Positions 921 to 10,883 of a DNA stretch of 34,527 nucleotides are shown here, piece after piece. Made by a program: the position numbers and the translations under genes. The notes under the pieces are model-generated. The model did no database searches and was not told where the DNA came from. It saw only the letters and a program-made list of their open reading frames with translations. Within the stretch, counting starts at the first letter, position 1. The number at the start of each line of letters is the position of its first letter. The stretch is from positions 1-34,527 of the forward strand of contig JAFUDC010000158.1 in assembly GCA_017459345.1 (NCBI GenBank). The letters run 5' to 3'. The DNA is from Eubacterium sp. (GTDB lineage Bacteria > Bacillota > Clostridia > Lachnospirales > Lachnospiraceae).

Positions 921-936
921 GTTAGATACCACTAAC
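921..936 (-). promoter_or_regulatory. Operator-like inverted repeat GTTAG-N6-CTAAC (copy 1)
   Basis: GTTAG (921-925), six bases, CTAAC (932-936). On the minus strand it ends 19 bases before the start codon of the membrane-anchored methyltransferase. The same repeat with the same spacing occurs at 1714-1729 and 10832-10847. No good -10/-35 pair was found here, so this copy may act within the transcript of the gene upstream or cover a weak promoter. Confidence 0.6.
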
Positions 937-953
937 CACAAGGTCTAAATGAT

Positions 954-972
954 GCCCCGCAAACTGCGGGGC
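954..972 (-). terminator. Hairpin after the second methyltransferase gene
   Basis: GCCCCGC-AAACT-GCGGGGC is a perfect 7-bp GC stem, 17 bases after the stop of the 990-1670 gene. On the minus strand it is followed by ATCATTT, a poor U-tract, so termination may be partial and allow read-through into the next methyltransferase gene. Confidence 0.55.
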
Positions 973-989
973 AATTCATCTTTATCTTC

Positions 990-1670
990 TCATTTCACAC
1001 AGCGAAAGCATCCGATCCCTTCCACGCTGGCAAGCTTCACTTTTGAGTACATTCCCTCCAGCCGTTTCCGAAGGCTCCCCTTCGTTTCGTAGGGCGGCGT
1101 GAAAAATCCTCCCGGCTGGTACAGATGTCTGATCATCCAGTCTGTGCGCCGGTTCCCGCCTTTGATATAAAAGCAGCCGCAGAAGGTCCCTCCCGGCTTC
1201 AGGACGCGGAAGGTCTCCCGGTAGGCAGCCTCTTTATCAGGAAATGCATGAAAGCCGTTCAGGGACAGAACCACATCAAAGGTCTCATCTTCAAAGGGCA
1301 GTGCTCCCACATCTCCCTGCAGAAAATTCACATGATCCAGTCCCATATCACAGGCTCTTTGCTGCGCTGTCGACATCATATCCTCTGAATAGTCCAGACA
1401 GGTGATATCCGCTTCCGGCAAATCCCTGTAAACAGGCATGGTGAGCACGCCTGTCCCGACCGGTACCTCCAGAAGTTTTCCCTTGAAATCCTCCGGCACT
1501 CCGGAAAGCGCCATCTCAAGATATCTGAGATTCTTCTCCCCATCCATATTCCAGACGAGCCGGCAGACCGCCTTTCCGGGGATTGTGGAATAGGTGATCA
1601 TCCCGTCATAGAAACCGGCACTCTTCCCGGTCACCTTATAGGCATTCTTAATCTGATCTTTTCTGGTCAT
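990..1670 (-). CDS. Class I SAM-dependent methyltransferase (UbiE/Methyltransf_11-like)
   Basis: A soluble protein of 226 residues. SAM motif I is LLEVPVGTG (near 67-75), where the usual second Gly is replaced by Pro (EVPVGTG instead of EVGCGTG). It is followed by CLDYSEDM, by GDVGALPFEDETFDVVLSL (the Methyltransf_11 core), and by FRVLKPGG. The substrate cannot be told from sequence. The ATG follows GAGAGGAAGGGGG. The gene has its own strong promoter with an overlapping GTTAG-N6-CTAAC operator and is transcribed toward the membrane-anchored methyltransferase at 98-901, so the two probably act together. Confidence 0.85.
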   Translation of the reverse strand: MTRKDQIKNAYKVTGKSAGFYDGMITYSTIPGKAVCRLVWNMDGEKNLRYLEMALSGVPEDFKGKLLEVPVGTGVLTMPVYRDLPEADITCLDYSEDMMSTAQQRACDMGLDHVNFLQGDVGALPFEDETFDVVLSLNGFHAFPDKEAAYRETFRVLKPGGTFCGCFYIKGGNRRTDWMIRHLYQPGGFFTPPYETKGSLRKRLEGMYSKVKLASVEGIGCFRCVK

Positions 1671-1713
1671 CCCTGCCCCCTTCCTCTCACATATGAATTA
1701 TACACGGGTTGTA

Positions 1714-1758
1714 GTTAGTTTCCCCTAACAATATAGCACTTGTTAGTTACATTTTCAA
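1714..1758 (-). promoter_or_regulatory. Promoter with overlapping GTTAG-N6-CTAAC operator (copy 2)
   Basis: On the minus strand, a -35 TTGAAA (1753-1758), a 17-base spacer and a -10 TATATT (1730-1735) form a near-consensus sigma-A promoter. The inverted repeat GTTAG-GGGAAA-CTAAC (1714-1729) abuts the -10 and would cover the transcription start, as expected for a repressor site. A further half-site (GTTAG, 1742-1746) lies in the spacer. The -35 is inside the 3' end of the upstream flavoprotein gene. Confidence 0.7.
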
Positions 1759-2343
1759 GCAGGAATCACAAGAAACCAGGGTTGTGTCAATCGTATCCTC
1801 TGCCGCTCTCATGATCGCACCAACGTCAGCTCCATCGACATCAAGACCGATGGCTGTTATCTGCCTGACATCCTGAATGCCATAGTAATTCTGTGCCAGT
1901 GCTTTGATGTATCCGAATCCATATTCCTCTGGCACGTAATAACCCCCTGCTGTCGTCACATAGAAAAGCCTGTTTGCCCTGCAAAGACCGACAGGCACAC
2001 CATCTTTCGAGTATTTGAAGGTAATTCCTACCACATTGATCTGCTCCAGGTATTGCTTTAATGCGGCAGGGAAGGATATATCCCAGAAGGGAGCTGCAAT
2101 CACGATGGTTTCCGCTTCCGCAAACCGCCGTGCAAGGTCAAACATCGGGTTTCCAAAATCCCCCCTGGAAATAAGCAGATCGCGCTTATTGAGATATTCT
2201 TCATCGACGGCAGGGAAAGCATACTCCCAAAGCCGGACTTCCTCATAGGGTTTATCCAGCTTTGAGAGCAGCTTCTCTGCCAGTCTCATTGTTCTGGATT
2301 CTTTTCGCACACAAGCATTTACATAAAGTATCGGTCTTTTCAT
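1747..2343 (-). CDS. FMN-dependent NADH-azoreductase-like flavoprotein
   Basis: 198 residues when started at the ATG at 2343, which has AAAGGTG upstream. An in-frame extension to 2403 lacks a ribosome binding site. It has a flavodoxin-like fold: N-terminal RPILYVNACVRKESRT (phosphate-binding loop), APFWDISFPAALKQYLEQI, the helix typical of the AzoR/AcpD and NAD(P)H-quinone oxidoreductase family, and TTAGGYY. These enzymes use FMN and NAD(P)H for two-electron reduction of quinones and azo compounds. The physiological substrate here is unknown. A GrpB-family gene lies 70 bases upstream on the same strand. The C-terminus has two close cysteines (CDSC). Confidence 0.85.
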   Translation of the reverse strand: MKRPILYVNACVRKESRTMRLAEKLLSKLDKPYEEVRLWEYAFPAVDEEYLNKRDLLISRGDFGNPMFDLARRFAEAETIVIAAPFWDISFPAALKQYLEQINVVGITFKYSKDGVPVGLCRANRLFYVTTAGGYYVPEEYGFGYIKALAQNYYGIQDVRQITAIGLDVDGADVGAIMRAAEDTIDTTLVSCDSCLKM

Positions 2344-2413
2344 TTTTTCACCTTTCATGAGATATGAGCTCCTGTCCACGCTGAAAAGCTTCACATTTCC
2401 CAAAGCATCTCCG

Positions 2414-2926
2414 TCATACCCCTATTTCTGAATATATTCTCTCAATGAATGCGGATTTATGTTGAATATAACGCCCTATATCATCGGGATATAGTTGTGC
2501 TCCTTCTTCTTTGATATGGCCGTATTCCCGCATAGTATCAGGATGGGTCCTCAGATAATCTCTGAAAGCAATATGCCTCTTCAGCTCTGGCGAATCCTCC
2601 GGGCAGACATATAAATGGTGCTTCTGTAAATGTTCTTTGCCATCATACTTGAATGCCTCTCTTCCGACGATGCCAAGGTTGCCTTCATATTGATAGCCAA
2701 TTTCCGACAGGATATCTATAACATCTTCCAAAACATTGTAATCTTTTATGACAACATCAATATCAATGACAGGTTTTGCTGATAAACCCTGAACTGAAGT
2801 GCTTCCGACATGTTCAATCCTTATGGCCAATTGTCCAAGTGCATTATTGAGTTCGGCTTTTATTTTAAGGAAGTCCTGTTCCCATTGTTCATCGTATGGG
2901 AGAACAATAACATGTTGCGTATCCAT
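2414..2926 (-). CDS. GrpB family protein (UPF0157, nucleotidyltransferase-like)
   Basis: A 170-residue protein covering the whole GrpB/UPF0157 domain. It opens with VIVLPYDEQWEQDF, followed by IEHVGSTSVQGLSAKPVIDIDVVI, the GS...D-x-D signature that places the family in the nucleotidyltransferase superfamily. KHHLYVCPEDSPELKRHIAFRDYLRTHP is the second conserved block. Members are sometimes found alone and sometimes fused to CoaE; the function is not established. The start at 2926 has AGAGGT upstream. The left end of the IS element lies about 75 bases upstream, so the insertion may have altered its promoter. Confidence 0.9.
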   Translation of the reverse strand: MDTQHVIVLPYDEQWEQDFLKIKAELNNALGQLAIRIEHVGSTSVQGLSAKPVIDIDVVIKDYNVLEDVIDILSEIGYQYEGNLGIVGREAFKYDGKEHLQKHHLYVCPEDSPELKRHIAFRDYLRTHPDTMREYGHIKEEGAQLYPDDIGRYIQHKSAFIERIYSEIGV

Positions 2927-3011
2927 AATTTCTTACCTCTGAGGAAGCCACCCCTGCAGATCACTTCGTCATTTTATGAATAACAAGCAAGAAAACTCCA
3001 TCCGATGTGAC

Positions 3012-3034
3012 ATAAGAAAACATGGTTTTCTTAT
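3012..3034. repeat. Left-end subterminal hairpin of the IS element
   Basis: ATAAGAAAAC-ATG-GTTTTCTTAT is a perfect 10-bp inverted repeat with a three-base loop, about 50 bases beyond the tnpA stop codon. In IS200/IS605 elements such hairpins are the TnpA recognition structures. It could also end tnpA transcription. Confidence 0.6.
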
Positions 3035-3082
3035 AGGTTCCTTAAAAACATCGGTTGGGGATGAATTGCCTTAAAACTATTG

Positions 3083-3535
3083 TTACCGTTTCCTGGAGTA
3101 TTTGCCACTCTTCACATATTTCCGTTTGTGCTCATCCGTACGCTGGCTGGCTATATATTCCCTGACTTTCTCAAGGGAGGTAGTGCCCGTAGATGCGATA
3201 AAGTAACTATTGCTCCAAAACGGAGCCTTTCCCCAAAGATATTTTTCCACATGTTCCTGGTAGTTGGCCCGGACCTCCTTAGACAGCTGTGTCTTAAGGG
3301 TACCGATCAGCCTGGAGGGGGTCACATCCGGCGGCATGGAGACAAGCAGATGCACATGGTCACGGTCTGTTTCGGCAGAGAGCATCTCACCGCCAAAACG
3401 GCCGCAGAGGTAAGCCGCATGCTCCTTCATGAAGTCACCGATCTCATCCGTGATGACCGGACGGCGGTATTTAGTCACAAAGACGATGTGGTAGGTCAGC
3501 AGATATACGGAGTGGGCTTTCTTTTTGTAGTCCAT
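3083..3535 (-). CDS. tnpA: IS200/IS605 family Y1 (HUH) transposase TnpA
   Basis: A 150-residue single-strand transposase that cuts and joins at hairpin ends through a phosphotyrosine link. The HUH motif is in DRDHVHLLV, with metal-binding H60 and H62. The catalytic tyrosine is Y127 in VREYIASQR. The N-terminal VYLLTYHIVFVTKYRRPV and the FWSNSYF block are typical. Length is normal for the family and all key residues are present, so the protein looks intact. The ATG follows ATGAGGATACTTT. It diverges from tnpB. Confidence 0.95.
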   Translation of the reverse strand: MDYKKKAHSVYLLTYHIVFVTKYRRPVITDEIGDFMKEHAAYLCGRFGGEMLSAETDRDHVHLLVSMPPDVTPSRLIGTLKTQLSKEVRANYQEHVEKYLWGKAPFWSNSYFIASTGTTSLEKVREYIASQRTDEHKRKYVKSGKYSRKR

Positions 3536-3574
3536 AAAGTATCCTCATAAAATTAAAATATAACAAACATGTGT

Positions 3575-3603
3575 TTGCAATCCTGCTTTGGTTATGATAT
3601 AAT
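3575..3603 (+). promoter_or_regulatory. Promoter of tnpB
   Basis: A -35 TTGCAA (3575-3580), a 17-base spacer and a -10 TATAAT (3598-3603). It lies about 120 bases before the tnpB start codon and points into tnpB. Confidence 0.65.
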
Positions 3604-3725
3604 ATAAATAGTTCCAAAGAGAGGATTAAAGGAGAAATCAGGCCGGATCAACTTTAAGCGGAACTATATATGTTTTTCCTATTTTAAAAGATAACCGATG
3701 TGATTGTCAAGGGGGTGGCAGACAT

Positions 3726-5125
3726 ATGTACAGGACAAGACTGGTGAGGATCAGGAAGAACAGCCGGTTCCGGGATTACTGCAGGGCAATATGCCTGGCT
3801 TCAGCCGGACTCTATAACCGGGCCAATTACCTGATCCGCCAGTATGCCACGGCCTGCCGGGACTGGAACCGGATGAGACCGCTGACAAAAAACCAGATGG
3901 AGGTCTTCCGCCTGGTCCGGGAAGTGACCCGGGGGACCAGGTATGAGCCAAAGGGGCAGTGGCTGACCTACGGGCAGCTGGACTATATCCTTAAAGTGAC
4001 GCATGACCCGGCCTACTACGCCCTTCCGTCCCAGGCCAACCAGCAGATCTTGAGGAAGCTCCTCCGGGACTATAAGTCATTTTTTGAGGCAATGAAGGTT
4101 TACCGGGATCATCCCGGGAGCCTGACCGGCAGGCCCGGTCTCCCGGCCTACCGGAAGAAGGGGGCATATGTTACGGCGATACTGACCAACCAGATCTGCA
4201 AGATCCGGGACGGGCACTATGTCCGGTTCCCCGGGACAGAGGACCGGATCGACCTGGGCAGGATCCCGGAAGGGGCCCGCCTTAAGGAAGTGCGGATCAA
4301 ACATGCCCATGATGAGTTTTACGTCGAAGCGGTCCTGGAACTGGACAGGGGACAGATGTGTAAGGAGGGCAGGCTGACCGGACTGGATGAAAGCGCATTA
4401 AGAAAAACACTCCGCCAGGCCGGGGCTGGTGAGTACCGGGCTGTTTCCATCGATCCGGGAGTGGACAACTTCTGTGCGGTGACCAATAACTTCGGGGAAA
4501 GGCCCTTCCTCATCAAGGGGAATCTGATCAAGGCAGAGAACCAGTATTACAACAAGAGACTGGCAGAGTTAAAGTCAGAAGCCATGCGGTGCAACGGCAG
4601 GCACAGCACCAGGAGGATCCGCCGCCTCACTGGCCGCCGCAACCGGATCCTTAAGGACCTCATGCATAAGGCGAGCCGGCGGATCGTGGACTGGGCAGCA
4701 GACCAGAGGGCGGACCTTGTCATACTTGGCCATAATACCTTCCAGAAGCAGGAGATCAGCCTGGGGCATGTCAGCAACCAGAATTTTGTGCAGATACCAT
4801 ACAGCGTATTTGCAGACATGCTGAGGTATAAGCTGGAAGAGAGGGGGATCGCCCTTATCCTGGCTGAGGAGAGCTATACATCAAAAGCAGACTGCCTGGC
4901 GGGAGACGAGATCCCGGTATATGGAAAAAAGGGAAAAAGAAGGCAGAAGACAGGCCTGTCTTTTCCGGGAAAAGGGTCCGCCGCGGCCTGTACCGTCATT
5001 TTGACGGGAGGGTGAGCAATGCGGACATCAATGGGGCGGCGAACATCTTAAGGAAAGTAATCCCAAACCAGAAGGGATGGGATAGAGGCGTCGTGGACAC
5101 GCCGTATGTTGTCAGGATCGCATAG
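3726..5125 (+). CDS. tnpB: TnpB (IS605 OrfB) RNA-guided nuclease, interrupted by a -1 frame change
   Basis: Starts at the ATG at 3726 behind AAGGGGGTGG. The first frame runs 429 codons to 5015, but the conserved C-terminus (PVFSGKRVRRGLYRHFDG then SNADINGAANILRK) lies in the -1 frame and ends at the TAG at 5123-5125. The join falls at the A6 run 4925-4930 and gives 402 + 64 = 466 residues. RuvC motif I is SIDPGVDNFC (D243), and the third acidic residue, D434, lies only in the shifted frame (codon 5024-5026). The zinc-ribbon CxxC pairs of typical TnpB are absent. The usual motif II Glu position reads VILGHNTF, while EES (381-383) precedes YTSK. This is either a 1-base deletion that inactivates the gene or a programmed frameshift. 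Confidence 0.85.
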
Positions 5126-5215
5126 CGGGACTGGCATGGACTGGCACGAAGGTGCCAGCATAGAAACTACATCCGACGAAAGCAGAAAGTCGGTTGTGGT
5201 AGTTCATATCCCGCA
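5126..5215 (+). ncRNA. Right end of the IS element; probable omega-RNA scaffold
   Basis: Just after the tnpB stop, CTGGCAC-GAAG-GTGCCAG (5141-5158) is a perfect 7-bp hairpin. AACTAC-AT-CCGAC pairs with GTCGG-TTGTG-GTAGTT (5165-5204). In TnpB-bearing elements the guide RNA is made from this position, overlapping the 3' end of tnpB and the right end. The RNA here is inferred from position and structure only. Confidence 0.4.
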
Positions 5216-5244
5216 GCGAAAATTGTGTCAATTTAGTGCTACTT

Positions 5245-6585
5245 CTATAGTTTCATGACCCACTTTCTGCTGCGGAAGAGCCACACAGAAACAATCCAGC
5301 GAACAATCTCTTCAAGACCAATCAGAAAATATACCCATGCCACCGGCAGCTTAAGAAGCCGGGCGCACAAAAAGCCAAGAGGGATACCGATCAGCCAGGT
5401 TCCCATCATGTCAATCCACATGATATATTTGGTTTTCCCGCCGCTGCGGATGATCCCGCCGCCGAGTATCATGTTCTGCACCTTAAAGGGTGCGAGTATC
5501 GCAAAGGCCACAAGCAGCCATTCCGCAGTTTGCAGAACATAGTCCTCAACATTATAAATACGGACATAATAGCCCTTCAGCAGGAGCAGCAGGATCGAAA
5601 GGGCGACAGAACCGACAAAACCATACCACATCAGCTTCCTGGACTCGTCATATGCCTTGTTATATTCTCCTTCACCCAGACGCTTGCCAATCAGGATTCC
5701 CGCCGCCTGTGCGAAACCGCTGAGGGCACCGATCAGCAGGGACTCCACCGGGGAAATCAGGGCGACAGCGGCTACCTCCTGTGTGCCCATATGACTGTAA
5801 ATGGCGGTGAAGATATTCTGTCCCAGACCCCAGAGGAATTCATTAACCACAACTGGCAGAAGCATGACGAGATACTGCCGCCGTTCCCTGCCGCTCATCT
5901 TGACAGAAGGAAGGAACCGGCCCTGGCGCTTCGATAAAAGCTTTTGAAAGAAAAGCCCGACGATCAGCACATTTACCCACTGGCTGGCAAGGCTTGCCAT
6001 GGCAGCTCCCCGGACGCCGAGGGCCGGAGCGCCAAACTTCCCGAAAATCAGAATATAATTCAGTCCCGTATTTGTCAGCGCGGATGCTATGGCGGCATAC
6101 AGAGGCGCTTTCGCCCGGTCGCTGCAGCGCAGCATGACCGACAGCGTGGAGGCCATGCCAATCGGGAGATAGGTGCCGGCAATCAGGCGAAGATAAGACG
6201 CTGCCAGCCGGACAGCATAGGCATCCTCGGAATAGAAGCCCATGATTTGTCCGGGGACCAGCAGACTGAGCAGGGTAAAAGCAAGAGCCACCCCGCCTGC
6301 TGCCATCAAATTGATGCATAAACTCCGATCAGCTGCTTTTTGATCCTTCTGCCCTATATATTGGGAAATCATAATCCCGGCGATTGCAGTAACCGCTCCG
6401 ATGACCACGGAGTACAAAAAGGCAAACTTCCCCGCAATACCGACAGCGGCAATACTGGTGCTGCCAAGCTGCCCCACCATGACCTGATCAATCATGGAAA
6501 AGGACGATTGGAGCATGGACTGGAGAGCAACGGGGATTGCAATTCGTATCACACTTTGGAAAAATGATTGCTGTTTCACTGTCAT
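5245..6585 (-). CDS. MATE family multidrug/cation antiporter
   Basis: 446 residues from the ATG at 6585, preceded by AAGGAAGGG. The longer frame to 6696 would overlap the TetR gene and is rejected. About 12 membrane segments in two homologous halves. PVALQSMLQSSFSMIDQVMVGQLGSTSIAAVG is the MATE N-half signature, and PVVVNEFLWGLGQNIFTAIYSHMGTQEVAAVAL repeats it in the C-half, matching length and layout of the family. Such pumps export drugs or metabolites using a Na+ or H+ gradient. It lies 22 bases downstream of the TetR gene in the same direction, so it is probably the regulator's main target. The right end of the IS lies just past its stop. Confidence 0.92.
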   Translation of the reverse strand: MTVKQQSFFQSVIRIAIPVALQSMLQSSFSMIDQVMVGQLGSTSIAAVGIAGKFAFLYSVVIGAVTAIAGIMISQYIGQKDQKAADRSLCINLMAAGGVALAFTLLSLLVPGQIMGFYSEDAYAVRLAASYLRLIAGTYLPIGMASTLSVMLRCSDRAKAPLYAAIASALTNTGLNYILIFGKFGAPALGVRGAAMASLASQWVNVLIVGLFFQKLLSKRQGRFLPSVKMSGRERRQYLVMLLPVVVNEFLWGLGQNIFTAIYSHMGTQEVAAVALISPVESLLIGALSGFAQAAGILIGKRLGEGEYNKAYDESRKLMWYGFVGSVALSILLLLLKGYYVRIYNVEDYVLQTAEWLLVAFAILAPFKVQNMILGGGIIRSGGKTKYIMWIDMMGTWLIGIPLGFLCARLLKLPVAWVYFLIGLEEIVRWIVSVWLFRSRKWVMKL

Positions 6586-6607
6586 TTCTTTTACCCTTCC
6601 TTTTTGT

Positions 6608-7222
6608 CTAAAAGCCAAGCAAAGCCCTCCATCCGGATGTAAAAAACGTGCTGGCTGCCTTAATATACTCATCTGCCTGGGCTCTTGAAAAATCATTTTT
6701 GATAAACTCTATATACGTGCGGTATTGATTCCTTATCATTAGCGAAATCGTCTCTTCTTCAACCAGGGGGATGGAAAAGCCTTTCTCTCTCAATGTGGGA
6801 AGCGTTCTTAAGATAATCTTTGTCTCATAATCCGAGATCCGATCCACAATGTTTTCGTAGGCTGTACCCTCGGCACAGCAGATCAGCAGCTTCATACCGT
6901 CAAAGTTCTCGTAGATAAAATCAAGTGTATCAGAAAAAGTCTGCTCCTTGTCCCACACTTCCTCCGTCTGGTTCCGCTGAAACAAATCATCTTTTTCTTT
7001 CTCTGTCAGCTGCATGATCTTTCTGATACCCTCGATAAGGGGATCCACCAGGGCGGAAAAAATAGCCTCCTTGCTCGCAAAATGCTTATACAGGCCCGGT
7101 GCCGAGATCCCAACCTCTTTTGCAATCATCTGCATTGATGTATCCCGAAAACCATGCTCTAAGAAAACGGTTCTCGATACATCCAATATTTTTTGCTGAG
7201 TATTACCTCTCCTGGCCGGCAT
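6608..7222 (-). CDS. TetR/AcrR family transcriptional repressor
   Basis: 204 residues from the ATG at 7222, with AGGGAGG seven bases upstream; a TTG two codons earlier is possible but less likely. The N-terminal helix-turn-helix reads TQQKILDVSRTVFLEHGFRDTSMQMIAKEVGISAPGLYKHFASKEAIF in blocks typical of TetR. The C-terminal half is a divergent ligand-binding domain. It is co-directional with and 22 bases from the MATE gene. A 9-bp inverted repeat just downstream of its promoter -10 suggests it represses itself and the pump. The ligand is unknown. Confidence 0.92.
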   Translation of the reverse strand: MPARRGNTQQKILDVSRTVFLEHGFRDTSMQMIAKEVGISAPGLYKHFASKEAIFSALVDPLIEGIRKIMQLTEKEKDDLFQRNQTEEVWDKEQTFSDTLDFIYENFDGMKLLICCAEGTAYENIVDRISDYETKIILRTLPTLREKGFSIPLVEEETISLMIRNQYRTYIEFIKNDFSRAQADEYIKAASTFFTSGWRALLGF

Positions 7223-7241
7223 AAGCAAACCTCCCTTTCCG

Positions 7242-7298
7242 AAAGGTTAATGGCGTTAACCTTTTGCTTATAATAGACATTTTCGAGCAAAAAGTCAA
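7242..7298 (-). promoter_or_regulatory. Promoter and operator of the TetR-MATE operon
   Basis: On the minus strand: -35 TTGACT (7293-7298), 17-base spacer, -10 TATTAT (7270-7275). Immediately downstream is a perfect inverted repeat with arms AAAGGTTAA (7242-7250) and TTAACCTTT (7256-7264) around five bases, over the expected transcription start. This is a textbook TetR autoregulatory site. Its core resembles the GTTAG-N6-CTAAC repeats but the half-site spacing is one base shorter. Confidence 0.8.
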
Positions 7299-7302
7299 GA
7301 GT

Positions 7303-7356
7303 AAAAAATTAAAAACGGGTACTCTCCCACTCGATTCAGAGTGGTCAAATACCCGT
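7303..7356 (-). terminator. Terminator of the five-gene operon
   Basis: On the minus strand, ACGGGTA (7350-7356 complement) pairs with TACCCGT (7315-7321 complement), with CCACTC/GAGTGG stacked inside (7327-7344), followed by TTTTTAATTTTTT. It lies 16 bases after the alpha/beta hydrolase stop and separates this operon from the TetR promoter. Confidence 0.85.
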
Positions 7357-7372
7357 AAAACTCTTATTTACA

Positions 7373-8140
7373 CTACACTTGCATCTCCATGAACTCGTCA
7401 ATCGCTTTCAGCACAGGTACGGCATATTTATCTCCGCCAAAAACCCACTGTTCATGCTGCATATCAAACTCGCGGATCTCCGGGTCCCGGAAATACTTCT
7501 TATAGCGTTTCAGATATTTCTCGCCCATCTTGTTGGCATAAATGAAGTGCACCTTTGTATGTTCCACATGAATGTCGTCCTCAAGCCATGTAAGCAAGTC
7601 TGTGTAGTACTCGTTTTTGATGGACTCCGGGGAGAACTTCTCAAAACAGGCCATGAACTTATCCGCCATCTCATCGTTCATCTCAAAGAAGTTTTTAAGC
7701 TTCTCGCGGGTTTTAGCCCTCTTCTTTTCCCCTTTAGTGAAGCTGGTCAAAAGAGGCACCACCAGTTTGGACTGCAGCCAGGCGCTGAACCTGCCGCTTT
7801 GATCCAGATCAGGGCTTCCGAAAATACCATGGTCGATGTGGATATTCTTCCTCTGAATCAGCTGACCGACAAAGCTGCTGCCCAGGGAGGAACCGATGGC
7901 GCCATCCACCCTTCCGTCAAAATGTTCCTGTATGTACTGCTCGATCTTCTCCGTCACCGTGATCATATCCGGAAAAATGGCATCGCTGCCATCAAAGCCG
8001 TCATAATTCACGCAGATCAGGTGGTATTTTTCGCCCAGCCGGTCCAGAACAGAGCCAAAATTCGTCTGATAATCGCAGGCTGTCCCCGGGAGCAGAAGCA
8101 TCGTTTTTCCGCTCATAAGTCCCATTTCATCAAATTGCAT
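7373..8140 (-). CDS. Alpha/beta hydrolase
   Basis: 255 residues. An N-terminal strand, TMLLLPGT (13-20), carries the oxyanion region. The nucleophile elbow is G83-S-S-L-G87 with S85 as the likely nucleophile. A downstream acidic residue and a C-terminal His (DMQHEQWVFGG) could complete the triad. No signal peptide, so cytoplasmic. The substrate is unknown. The ATG follows ATAGGAGAT. Last gene of a five-gene operon, 26 bases after a small membrane protein gene. The order membrane protein, methyltransferase, hydrolase hints at turnover of a lipid or small hydrophobic ester (inference). Confidence 0.8.
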   Translation of the reverse strand: MQFDEMGLMSGKTMLLLPGTACDYQTNFGSVLDRLGEKYHLICVNYDGFDGSDAIFPDMITVTEKIEQYIQEHFDGRVDGAIGSSLGSSFVGQLIQRKNIHIDHGIFGSPDLDQSGRFSAWLQSKLVVPLLTSFTKGEKKRAKTREKLKNFFEMNDEMADKFMACFEKFSPESIKNEYYTDLLTWLEDDIHVEHTKVHFIYANKMGEKYLKRYKKYFRDPEIREFDMQHEQWVFGGDKYAVPVLKAIDEFMEMQV

Positions 8141-8166
8141 TTTTTATCTCCTATATATATGATATC

Positions 8167-8673
8167 TTACAGCATTGAACAAATCCAGGCAATCAGCGCA
8201 GACATCGCAGGGAAGATGACCAGCAGCTTTAACAGCTGACTTTTGATGTTGAAACCATATTTTCTGTTTTTCATAACCTGCCTGGTTTCGGGATAGTAAT
8301 ACTGAAAGAAGCCGAATTTCAGAAGCAGGAAATTGTCGATGAGGATCATGTCACAAAGCTTGTAAACCGTCGTTATAATGAGAAAGCGAAGGAAAAACTG
8401 ACAGAAAGTAAAGTTGTTTCTGAAACCATCGCAGATTGATATTACCACGACTCCTGATGCCATAAGCAAACTGAGAATAAAAAGCAGCCACCCAATCGCT
8501 CTGGCACCCGGGAACAGTTCTTCCGGTCTGGCTTCAATGACCGCCTGTATCTCCTTCGGAGCTGAAGAAAAGAACTTTTTGTCCTGGATAAAAGCTACGG
8601 CTGAGAGCAGCATCACTGCGATAGCTGCGCAGAATACAAGAGTGAGGAAAATGGTTAAAATAATGGTGTACAT
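8167..8673 (-). CDS. Small membrane protein, related to the first protein of the operon
   Basis: 168 residues with about four membrane segments (near 4-27, 60-80, 90-112, 145-165). No family name is recognised. It shares layout with the 10218-10730 product: a first helix, a loop with P-E-(I/V) (APKEIQAVIE here, YPEDVRKASK there), two more helices, and a helix with D-x4-D-x-(F/W)-L-L (CDMILIDNFLL here, IDLLVMDWLLV there), then F-G before the last helix. The start has GGAGGT upstream, inside the end of the methyltransferase gene, and is separated from its stop by three bases, so translation is probably coupled. Confidence 0.8.
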   Translation of the reverse strand: MYTIILTIFLTLVFCAAIAVMLLSAVAFIQDKKFFSSAPKEIQAVIEARPEELFPGARAIGWLLFILSLLMASGVVVISICDGFRNNFTFCQFFLRFLIITTVYKLCDMILIDNFLLLKFGFFQYYYPETRQVMKNRKYGFNIKSQLLKLLVIFPAMSALIAWICSML

Positions 8674-8676
8674 TTC

Positions 8677-9459
8677 TTACCTCCATTCAAACACGGACAG
8701 CCGGTTATTCATATCCCCGATGATCGTTCCGAGTATTCTGCTTAAAAGCCTGCCCTTTTTCATCTGCTCCGAGAAGGTCATCTCCCTGACAAATGAGATC
8801 CTGTCATTCAATAAGGTGAGTTCCCTCCCGGTCTTTTCAATTCCCCAGCCAAAGGTCGCGTTGGTATGCTTCACGGTATCATGCATGTCCTCCTTCATCA
8901 TTTTCTGGCGCATAAGTTCCACAAGAAGAACCCCCCTGGGAAAACCTTCGGTCAGACTCCTTAAGATTGCGGAAACCTGTTCCCGGGAAAAATACATGAA
9001 CAGGCCTTCCGCAACGATAATGACGGGCTTCTCCTTGGGAATATCGTCACTCCAGTGATCATCCAGAATACTGCAGCCGATCATCTTCTCCCTGTCGCTT
9101 TCTTCAAAGACTTTCTTTCTGACTTCAATTGAATCCGGCAGATCAACATTGTACCAGGAGATCTGCCCGTTATCGACACGGGAGAAACGGTCGTCCAGGC
9201 CGCAGCCCAGATTGATGCAGACGGCATCCGGATTCTTCCGGATAAATGCTTTTGTCATATTATCAAAGAGAATCGTTCTGGCCACGACACATTCGTGTGT
9301 TACCAGCTTGTCCAGATTCCTGGTATCAATTCCAAGCGTATCAATAATCTCCACCGCTTTTGGATCGTTGATCCTGGCATTTTTTCTTCTGCTCTCATTG
9401 GCTCTCACCGCAAGGGGAATAAGGGCCGTTTCTTCGACATCACCAAGGTGTAAATTCAT
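8677..9459 (-). CDS. LCMT-type (leucine carboxyl methyltransferase/TcmP-like) SAM methyltransferase
   Basis: 260 residues matching the Ppm1/Ppm2/TcmP family. Early RxxE-type and RR-KNARINDPKAVEII blocks precede ECVVARTILFDNMTKAFI. The SAM motif is VCINLGCGLDDRFSR (about 80-94), followed by WYNVDLPDSIEVRKK and VIIVAEGLFMYF. Bacterial members methylate carboxylates or polyketide oxygens; the target here is unknown. The ATG follows GGGAGGTGA. Third gene of the five-gene operon, 34 bases after the DUF6796-like gene. It makes a third methyltransferase under the GTTAG-N6-CTAAC repeat. Confidence 0.88.
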   Translation of the reverse strand: MNLHLGDVEETALIPLAVRANESRRKNARINDPKAVEIIDTLGIDTRNLDKLVTHECVVARTILFDNMTKAFIRKNPDAVCINLGCGLDDRFSRVDNGQISWYNVDLPDSIEVRKKVFEESDREKMIGCSILDDHWSDDIPKEKPVIIVAEGLFMYFSREQVSAILRSLTEGFPRGVLLVELMRQKMMKEDMHDTVKHTNATFGWGIEKTGRELTLLNDRISFVREMTFSEQMKKGRLLSRILGTIIGDMNNRLSVFEWR

Positions 9460-9493
9460 TCTGTTTGGTCACCTCCCTCATTCAACAGAATTT

Positions 9494-10174
9494 CTATCGT
9501 TTTTTATCAATCGTAATCGCTTTCCGATTCCAGTAGATAACAAGATTGATATAAATACATCCTTCAAACAAACTCTCGGCGGCACCGAGTGCGCCGATCC
9601 ATTTCCAGTTCCTAAGAACAAGCTGGAGGACTGCTATAAGCAAGGCATAGCCGGCATTGATCAAAATCGTTTTTCGGGGTATTCCGTACTTGCCACGTAT
9701 CGTCATATACAAAATCATCAGCAAGGGAAGATAAAGGAGTAGTATCATGAGCACATTCGGGAGCGCCATGTAGGAAGACCATCTCATGCACATCCGGGCA
9801 GCCTGGTCGGCAGAAGCGCCTTCTGCCAGCGCATTCTTATATGTAAGCGGAAGCAGTGTTCCCAGTGCAAAATGCGCAAATCCGGCCATCACAGCTCCGG
9901 GTATACCGAGAACCGCAGCCATTCCCGGCTTCTTCCCCAGCTCATTTTTGATCGCTGTATATGCGCTGAAAGCGCCAAGCATCATGACAATTCCGCCGAT
10001 CATTCCGCACCAGGTTGAACCCATGAATCTATACGCCGACATTTCTGCCCATAATGGCTGGATATCACTGTCAAGCGTAAGCCCGGGATACAAATAGATC
10101 AGCCAGTCGCCCACACCAAACAAGATGGCGCCGACGATCCCCATGCAGGCCATATTTCTGTATTTTTTATACAT
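9494..10174 (-). CDS. Six-helix membrane protein, possibly DUF6796 family
   Basis: 226 residues from the ATG at 10174, which has GGAGGT eight bases upstream; a start at 10195 lacks a site. About six membrane segments. Notable blocks: GVGDWLIYLYPG in the first helix end, WSSYMALPNVLMILLLYLPL, and a C-terminal ESLFEGCIYINLVIYWNR. I recall this layout as the DUF6796 family, but that is not certain, and no function is known. It lies between the operon's first membrane protein (43 bases upstream) and the LCMT-type methyltransferase. Confidence 0.75.
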   Translation of the reverse strand: MYKKYRNMACMGIVGAILFGVGDWLIYLYPGLTLDSDIQPLWAEMSAYRFMGSTWCGMIGGIVMMLGAFSAYTAIKNELGKKPGMAAVLGIPGAVMAGFAHFALGTLLPLTYKNALAEGASADQAARMCMRWSSYMALPNVLMILLLYLPLLMILYMTIRGKYGIPRKTILINAGYALLIAVLQLVLRNWKWIGALGAAESLFEGCIYINLVIYWNRKAITIDKKR

Positions 10175-10217
10175 TGCTGATACCTCCGATATCATATTCC
10201 CTGATAGACATTTTTTA

Positions 10218-10730
10218 CTACGTCCATATCAGATAATGCAAGATCGCGTAATCGATTCCTGCAAAAACCAGCGCCATGATTGTCGTGTATAGGCAGCCGA
10301 TCAGGAAACCTTTGAAATGATGACCGAAATCTTCATAACTGCTGCAGTTTTCCGTACCCGGAATAATCAGCCAGGCAGGCCGCAGCGTGCAGACCAGAAG
10401 CCAGTCCATGACCAGGAGGTCGATGACATTCCAGCTCATGGCGATAATGAACAGAAAACAGAAGATCATTGAAAATTCTGCCTTACCATTACGAAAATAA
10501 GTAAGTCCAAACAGAATCAATGCGCCAAAAATGATAATTGATCCGATTCCGCTGAAGATTTTCGCATTCCTTTTCTGTCGGCTGTCCGGCTCCGAAAGTT
10601 TGGACGCCTTACGGACATCTTCAGGATAGTCGTGCAGCATCTCCCAGGGAAAGCACTTCATAATCACATAAACAAAGAACATCCATAACCCAGACCAGAC
10701 CAGGCCTTCAATCAGTGCTGTTTTTATCAT
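10218..10730 (-). CDS. Small membrane protein, first gene of the five-gene operon
   Basis: 170 residues from the ATG at 10730, preceded by AGGAGG six bases away; the upstream in-frame ATG at 10745 overlaps that site and is less likely. Four membrane segments (near 10-28, 65-83, 88-110, 140-165). Unrecognised family, but clearly of the same type as the 8167-8673 product, so the operon holds two diverged paralogues. It is directly downstream of a near-consensus promoter with a perfect palindromic operator. Confidence 0.8.
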   Translation of the reverse strand: MIKTALIEGLVWSGLWMFFVYVIMKCFPWEMLHDYPEDVRKASKLSEPDSRQKRNAKIFSGIGSIIIFGALILFGLTYFRNGKAEFSMIFCFLFIIAMSWNVIDLLVMDWLLVCTLRPAWLIIPGTENCSSYEDFGHHFKGFLIGCLYTTIMALVFAGIDYAILHYLIWT

Positions 10731-10829
10731 CTCAAACCTCCTCATGTAAATTGTGAATCTCGCAGAAAATTCGCGTGCAAGTTGAGCAAAATAATGCTCT
10801 AGCCATATGTGGTTGAAATGTTCGATTGG

Positions 10830-10883
10830 AAGTTAGTCTTTACTAACTTTATACACTATACCTTATTTTTTCTGATTTTTCAA
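10830..10883 (-). promoter_or_regulatory. Promoter and palindromic operator of the five-gene operon (GTTAG-N6-CTAAC copy 3)
   Basis: On the minus strand: -35 TTGAAA (10878-10883), 17-base spacer, -10 TATAGT (10855-10860). Six bases further begins the palindrome with arms AAGTTAGT and ACTAACTT around four bases (10830-10849), over the expected start site. This is the best copy of the repeat also seen at 921-936 and 1714-1729. The 5' leader to the first gene is about 115 bases. Confidence 0.8.

Follow-up and report, generated by a model that had tools for sequence, protein, structure and literature searches.

A 34,527-nucleotide contig of a Eubacterium sp. from the Lachnospiraceae (JAFUDC010000158.1, assembly GCA_017459345.1; the whole stretch is hereafter the window) carries three copies of the inverted repeat GTTAG-N6-CTAAC. 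Very probably this repeat serves as operator for a short iron-dependent repressor of the DtxR family, 126 amino acids (aa) long and encoded on contig C132 of the same genome, which would block the transcription start site as one Fe2+-loaded dimer and control an iron-starvation regulon. The methyltransferase and membrane genes of the window are most likely only some members of this iron regulon, and several uncharacterised enzymes are probably under iron control. The model is supported by observations of the repeat itself, its placement, the iron genes in its company, its fixed spacing, its conservation at orthologous genes and its link to DtxR genes; we infer repressor binding, the metal sensed and the direction of regulation. 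With ample ferrous iron, a single metal-loaded dimer would sit on TTAG-N6-CTAA over the transcription start, and RNA polymerase would be blocked by it, giving repression. When iron is scarce the repressor would release the operator, allowing joint transcription of the genes for iron uptake, of its own gene, of those for accessory regulators and of the methyltransferase, hydrolase and membrane genes of the window.

In the window the repeat lies on the minus strand at 921-936, 1714-1729 and 10832-10847 (copies 1, 2 and 3), with arms of five bases and at 19, 43 and 86 bp from the next gene; in the case of copy 1, this is the distance to the start codon of a membrane-anchored methyltransferase gene. 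A preliminary description of this DNA had reported three identical repeats, each upstream of a minus-strand gene, and no further copy. An exact pattern search bears this out, and the exact repeat was absent from all of 200 windows simulated with the first-order base transitions of this one. The perfect 8+8 palindrome described for one copy is indeed present at copy 3 (AAGTTAGT-CTTT-ACTAACTT, 10830-10849), as are the two near-consensus promoters, TTGAAA-N17-TATATT at 1730-1758 and TTGAAA-N17-TATAGT at 10855-10883, both on the minus strand and each with 10 of 12 consensus letters. Shuffled sequence gives about one promoter-like match per region, against the one observed in each promoter region, and the promoters alone are therefore weak, suggestive evidence. 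Copy 2 immediately follows the first of them, with no base between it and the -10 hexamer, and copy 3 lies seven bases after the -10 box of the second; at these distances both overlie the expected start point. Placement just after promoter-like sequences fits a repressor, as expected. A promoter-like match belonging to copy 1 was looked for and none was found; its gene may be reached by read-through transcription from the promoter of copy 2.

The control motif throughout was the reversed pattern of the repeat and, for its core TTAG-N6-CTAA, the reversed core. Across the source genome (2.96 Mb in 188 contigs, 97% complete) the exact repeat occurs eight times and the reversed pattern once. The five exact copies outside the window lie 14 to 116 bp from a start codon, and precede genes for a FeoB-associated protein, FeoA and FeoB (C25:1615), an ABC transporter pair (C25:14031), a DUF3793-flavodoxin (C78:8114), an ABC/FtsX pair (C95:30720) and a MarR-FeoA::FeoB operon (C139:175, 31 bp before the MarR gene). 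There are 14 copies with one mismatch, 7 of which precede iron or metalloregulator genes. One is a second copy at the feo operon of C25:1615 (C25:1683), two stand before FeoA-FeoA-FeoB on C38, two lie 173 and 308 bp before FTR1 with PF10634 (Fe2+-transport) and FtrD, one is 58 bp upstream of a Fur-like gene on C78 and one 246 bp before the DtxR-family gene. Others precede the gene of a large surface protein in which an FMN-binding domain is joined by a Shr-like haem domain that scores below threshold (17.7 bits against a cut-off of 22.3), an ATC-hydrolase/methyltransferase operon adjoining feoB, and enolase (L023, G000:C101, 1867-1882, at 104 bp). The repeat therefore stands ahead of three feo operons, an FTR1 permease, a flavodoxin, a Fur-like gene and a DtxR-family gene in this one genome. 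The preliminary description had proposed a methyltransferase/membrane-protein regulon. The shared operator and regulon are supported, the repeat being over-represented, mostly intergenic, conserved and linked to a regulator, but the methyltransferase/membrane identity gives way to iron genes; a methyltransferase-specific regulon is ruled out by the iron genes that the repeat precedes elsewhere in the same genome.

Which regulator does the repeat follow? Counts were made in 150 family genomes (this one included), mostly Lachnospiraceae judging by relatives, which hold 852 repeats against 259 reversed controls (3.3 times commoner), with more repeats than controls in 118 genomes and equal numbers in 14. 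A DtxR relative is present in 139 of the 150. The mean copy number is 5.99 with a DtxR gene (control 1.68) and 1.82 in the 11 genomes without one (control 2.36; Mann-Whitney P 2.6e-4); at a completeness of at least 85% the comparison comprises 129 and 9 genomes (P 0.0015). Across the genome and its relatives, the excess of the repeat accompanies one regulator gene, that of DtxR. Among 80 named contigs with repressor relatives, 37 are labelled Lachnospiraceae, and the others include Roseburia, Blautia, Dorea and Butyrivibrio, which are members of that family, and a few Clostridium or Oscillospiraceae.

Context was compared between 29 fetched copies from other genomes and 29 reversed-pattern loci, own-genome loci being excluded from both. 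The repeat lies upstream of an open reading frame (ORF) in 27/29 cases (control 10/29) and outside ORFs of at least 120 aa in 26/29 (control 10/29). Pfam searches of 37 repeat-neighbour proteins gave FeoB five times, DtxR four times, and Trep_Strep and ABC twice each, with single matches to FeoA, Shp haem-binding, ApbE, DUF3793 and enolase. The families listed for 32 control neighbours include no such iron family; the lists cover the top 25 of 48 families for the repeat and of 82 for the control.

The repressor gene itself often stands behind a copy. Upstream sequence of at least 300 bp was available for 73 of 80 named-contig loci; 32 of these have the core no more than 400 bp from dtxR, and one has the reversed core. 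TTAG and CTAA are six bases apart 37 times upstream of these genes and ten bases apart ten times, no other spacing between 0 and 14 being seen more than twice; of the spacings that would mark a 19-bp box, the inner N1 occurs once and the outer N11 never, as against 37 for N6. In a separate set of 30 family dtxR loci (own included), the core was read by eye within about 350 bp upstream in 15. The peak at six recurs in four locus sets, including whole dtxR loci and the orthologue regions and relatives of the LCM-family methyltransferase gene of the window; the motif itself served to select the own-genome set, which is therefore not independent, whereas the remaining three sets were chosen through their proteins. 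Over 60 sites the inner (fifth) base of the arm is T at a frequency of 0.59, A at 0.19, C at 0.17 and G at 0.04.

The candidate repressor (L025:5290-5670) matches PF01325 (E 1.1e-9) and PF02742 (E 1.5e-14), both over cut-off, and is the sole PF01325 match over cut-off in its genome, two weaker matches lying below it. In an alignment of 14 rows, representing 13 different genes as L042 and L059 hold the same one, the motif C-x2-E-H (C102, E105, H106) is invariant, and we take these residues to be ligands of the primary metal site, as in the iron-type DtxR. The N-terminal ligand position is occupied by Asn in 11/14 rows and by Asp or Met in 3/14; this ligand is Met10 in DtxR and Asp8 in MntR. The protein ends at residue 126 and has no C-terminal SH3-like domain, a domain present in DtxR/IdeR and not in MntR. 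The position of Gln43, which contacts the inner base in IdeR, holds Ile or Val in most rows, an assignment that is hypothetical and depends on by-eye alignment with DtxR numbering. The target genes of the repressor and the Cys of C-x2-E-H suggest a preference for iron.

Several observations weigh against an iron-dependent DtxR-type repressor acting through this repeat. Repeats are fewer than controls in 18/150 genomes, an exact copy is missing from 8/139 genomes with DtxR (one of them, G057, has the variant ATTAG-N6-CTAAC ahead of dtxR), and 4/11 genomes without DtxR still exceed the control; the P value of the DtxR link (2.6e-4) moreover ignores shared ancestry. The core is absent within 400 bp of dtxR at 41/73 loci, some neighbours of the repeat have no known iron link (AraC-type twice, AMP-binding, histidine biosynthesis, resolvase), and the fifth half-site base is mostly T/A, unlike the G/C of IdeR sites. 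In the source genome, allowing one mismatch gives 22 copies against 64 of the reversed pattern. Since the reversed pattern is the commoner, one-mismatch copies are credible by location only and their number was rejected as evidence; moreover, 4 of the 14 have no clear iron target, the one on C127 being unclear and one on C133 and two on C153 chance-like.

A DtxR-family protein that senses manganese, in the manner of MntR, is an unlikely alternative to the iron-dependent repressor. The best matches of the C132 protein in a sequence search of the PDB are MntR proteins, and its length and two-domain build are similar to those of MntR from Bacillus and E. coli. However, the repeat precedes ferrous iron and flavodoxin genes, and haem-binding genes in some relatives, and in the alignment the protein reads D-A-C-K-I-E-H where MntR reads D-V-E-G-I-E-H, placing Cys instead of Glu at a metal-ligand position. 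We take Cys there to be the iron-type ligand of DtxR/IdeR, and the operator of MntR also differs from this repeat. About as unlikely is binding of the repeat by a Fur-family protein such as the product of the C78 Fur-like gene. A one-mismatch copy does lie 58 bp upstream of that gene, and in Clostridioides difficile it is Fur that controls the iron response (PMC6311696), but the C78 gene covers only positions 1-64 of the 121-position Fur profile, the geometry of the repeat is that of DtxR and its distribution follows the DtxR gene.

The MarR-family protein of the C139 MarR-FeoA::FeoB operon was also considered. An exact copy stands 31 bp before its gene with nothing else between them, and MarR proteins bind palindromes of roughly this size. 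MarR relatives (E 1e-8) are nevertheless confined to 13/150 family genomes, own included, with the other 12 at 25-35% identity, and the copy number is 5.54 with and 5.69 without one (P 0.88). Its role as regulator is therefore very improbable, and this candidate was rejected. Finally, the reversed control averages 1.7 per genome (259 in 150), so that few copies mean little, and the repeats might be a chance or repeat-family coincidence without function; three copies in one window against none in 200 simulations, the intergenic bias and the exact spacing make this almost inconceivable.

An operator of this form has precedent among the iron repressors of Actinobacteria. According to one study, the classical IdeR/DtxR box TTAGGTTAGSCTAACCTAA accommodates two dimers, which occupy repeats 1 and 3 and repeats 2 and 4, respectively, and IdeR is shown to bind a half site as one dimer (PMC8464063). 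The repeat pair of each dimer is TTAG and CTAA six bases apart, and half a box is therefore the repeat described here. A 14-bp half-site consensus, TTAGGNNNNCCTAA, has been proposed, and at repressed genes the IdeR box lies across the start site or the -10 element, according to a 2023 review (PMC10317159). The IdeR/DtxR regulons share with the present system a PF01325 plus PF02742 repressor, TTAG...CTAA half sites, a box over the start site or -10, iron uptake targets and a repressor gene often behind a copy. They differ in that half sites here look the rule, not the 19-bp two-dimer box, in the inner base (T/A here, not G/C) and in the absence of an SH3 domain from the 126-aa protein. In Saccharopolyspora erythraea, the IdeR half sites likewise take one dimer on two 5-base repeats with equal TTAG/CTAA spacing; there they supplement two-dimer boxes, as at the nuo promoter (PMC8464063), whereas here they apparently make up the whole regulon across the family.

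The C. difficile Fur regulon, with the ferrosome genes fezA and fezB, has similar target functions (PMC12574912), but the operator here is of DtxR type. Pairs of DUF6110 and P-type ATPase genes stand directly behind the repeat at L167 (1561-2046) and L174 (5099-5438) and are possibly ferrosome-like, DUF6110 being at most a candidate counterpart of FezA. DUF6110 typically accompanies P1B6 ATPases (PMC9374683). In the source genome, the corresponding pair (L024) has no repeat copy on its 5' side.

A description of this operator, or of the iron regulator of Lachnospiraceae, was not found in the open-licence literature searched, and a paper on C. thermocellum binding sites does not mention DtxR. 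Iron supply shapes the gut flora, of which Lachnospiraceae are a dominant family, and the present analysis proposes a regulator for the iron response together with the operator and a set of target genes. The findings bear on half-site operators in other species, which the 2023 review describes as still to be examined (PMC10317159), and place several uncharacterised gene families in an iron-starvation context, in which they can be assayed.

Copy 3 precedes a five-gene operon on the minus strand. Its first gene encodes a small membrane protein (10218-10745, 175 aa) with five hydrophobic segments and no Pfam or NCBIfam match, followed by a DUF6796 membrane protein (9494-10195, 233 aa; PF20599, E 5.7e-27) also with five hydrophobic segments, an LCM-family (PF04072) S-adenosylmethionine-dependent methyltransferase (8677-9459, 260 aa; E 8.7e-15), a second small membrane protein (8167-8673, 168 aa) with four such segments and, as the last gene, a probable alpha/beta-hydrolase-type protein (7373-8140, 255 aa). 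The genes behind copies 1 and 2, again on the minus strand, encode the membrane-anchored class I methyltransferase (98-901, 267 aa; Pfam Methyltransf_31/25/11), with two hydrophobic N-terminal segments by hydropathy, and a class I methyltransferase of 226 aa (990-1670; Methyltransf_25/11). In NCBIfam the three methyltransferases have best matches that fall short of the cut-off, and no match was found for the hydrolase-like protein or the three membrane proteins; a PDB sequence search with the LCM protein gave LCMT1 alone (E 0.0099).

Judged from sequence comparison, the LCM-type methyltransferase gene is a recurring putative target of the repeat. Its relatives were found in 42/397 family genomes (46 matches in all), and 29 of the 45 matches outside its own genome were examined, comprising 19 wider-fetched orthologue regions (proteins 46-63% identical to that of the window) and 10 distant relatives. 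The core occurs in 28 of these 29 loci (18/19 and 10/10; reversed core 1/19 and 1/10), at most 300 bp upstream of the gene in 17/29 (reversed 0/29) and upstream within 5.5 kb in 24/29 (reversed 1/29). For the other two methyltransferases the core was sought within about 1.5 kb on either side, and is present at 6/15 orthologue loci of the membrane-anchored enzyme (reversed 0/15) and 4/8 of the 226-aa enzyme (reversed 0/8); in one relative, G121, their orthologues are adjacent on one strand with a single repeat upstream. Conservation ahead of orthologues is hence strong for the LCM gene and weaker for the other two. A contig-edge fragment of the same genome (G000:C163:3-383, L277) shares 96% identity with the final 127 residues of the membrane-anchored methyltransferase, a second and partly assembled copy.

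FeoB, DUF3793-flavodoxin, P-type ATPase plus DUF6110 and TetR/ABC genes surround the LCM relatives in varying order, none of them universally present, and homologues of the hydrolase-like and small membrane proteins recur in changing order around some. The preliminary description had named an alpha/beta hydrolase. The 7373-8140 protein itself has no Pfam match and a weak PDB sequence match (E 0.12), but a 44% identical relative (L162:8621-9394) matches Abhydrolase_1 (E 3.4e-6); a 76% identical relative in L170 matches neither Abhydrolase_1 nor any other Pfam family. Homologues at 76-78% identity adjoin motif-bearing LCM genes in L170 and L177. Homologues of the 8167-8673 protein occur in 5/19 LCM-orthologue regions (L162, L163, L166, L170 and L172), while a search at E 1e-15 for orthologues of the DUF6796 gene gave none in 249 further genomes, although DUF6796 domain proteins are present in L162 and L163. 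Because this gene company includes iron uptake genes and ABC transporters, a role of the methyltransferase, hydrolase and membrane genes in iron acquisition or haem processing is plausible. The hydrophobic metabolite that the preliminary description suggested as their substrate or product is neither favoured nor contradicted by these results. A wider and distinctly speculative proposal is that a short repressor of DtxR type, acting at single-dimer half-sites, controls iron homeostasis throughout the Lachnospiraceae, with a regulon in which LCM-type and other small methyltransferases, alpha/beta hydrolases, and ATC-hydrolase-like and small membrane proteins reshuffle and would make or process a hitherto undescribed iron-acquisition compound, such as a metallophore or modified tetrapyrrole.

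In a class-wide count of 291 genomes, the excess of the repeat outside the family is patchy by eye, with many genomes at control level. The families labelled f5, f45 and f52 show many copies there, the motif/control counts in the 7 genomes of f45 being 11/2, 18/3, 6/0, 2/0, 4/0, 9/0 and 6/0. Dense islands of repeats were seen at G116:C7:124984-144306 (9 within 20 kb) and G082:C9:115808-133030 (5 within 18 kb), and are probably iron-acquisition islands. The repeat stands ahead of enolase in two genomes (L023 of this genome and L167, at 4316), and enolase is also among the neighbours in other genomes; glycolysis may be tied to iron in this way.

Two further features of the window were noted. A palindrome read by eye at 7242-7264, AAAGGTTAA-TGGCG-TTAACCTTT, lies next to a gene for a TetR regulator (6608-7228), itself followed by the gene of a MatE-family exporter (5245-6696), and is probably the operator of that TetR, unrelated to the iron repeat. 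An IS200/IS605-type element occupies 3083-5100, comprising a minus-strand gene (3083-3535) for a Y1_Tnp transposase and an OrfB_IS605 ORF (3726-5015), the conserved C-terminal end of which was seen by eye in another frame downstream.

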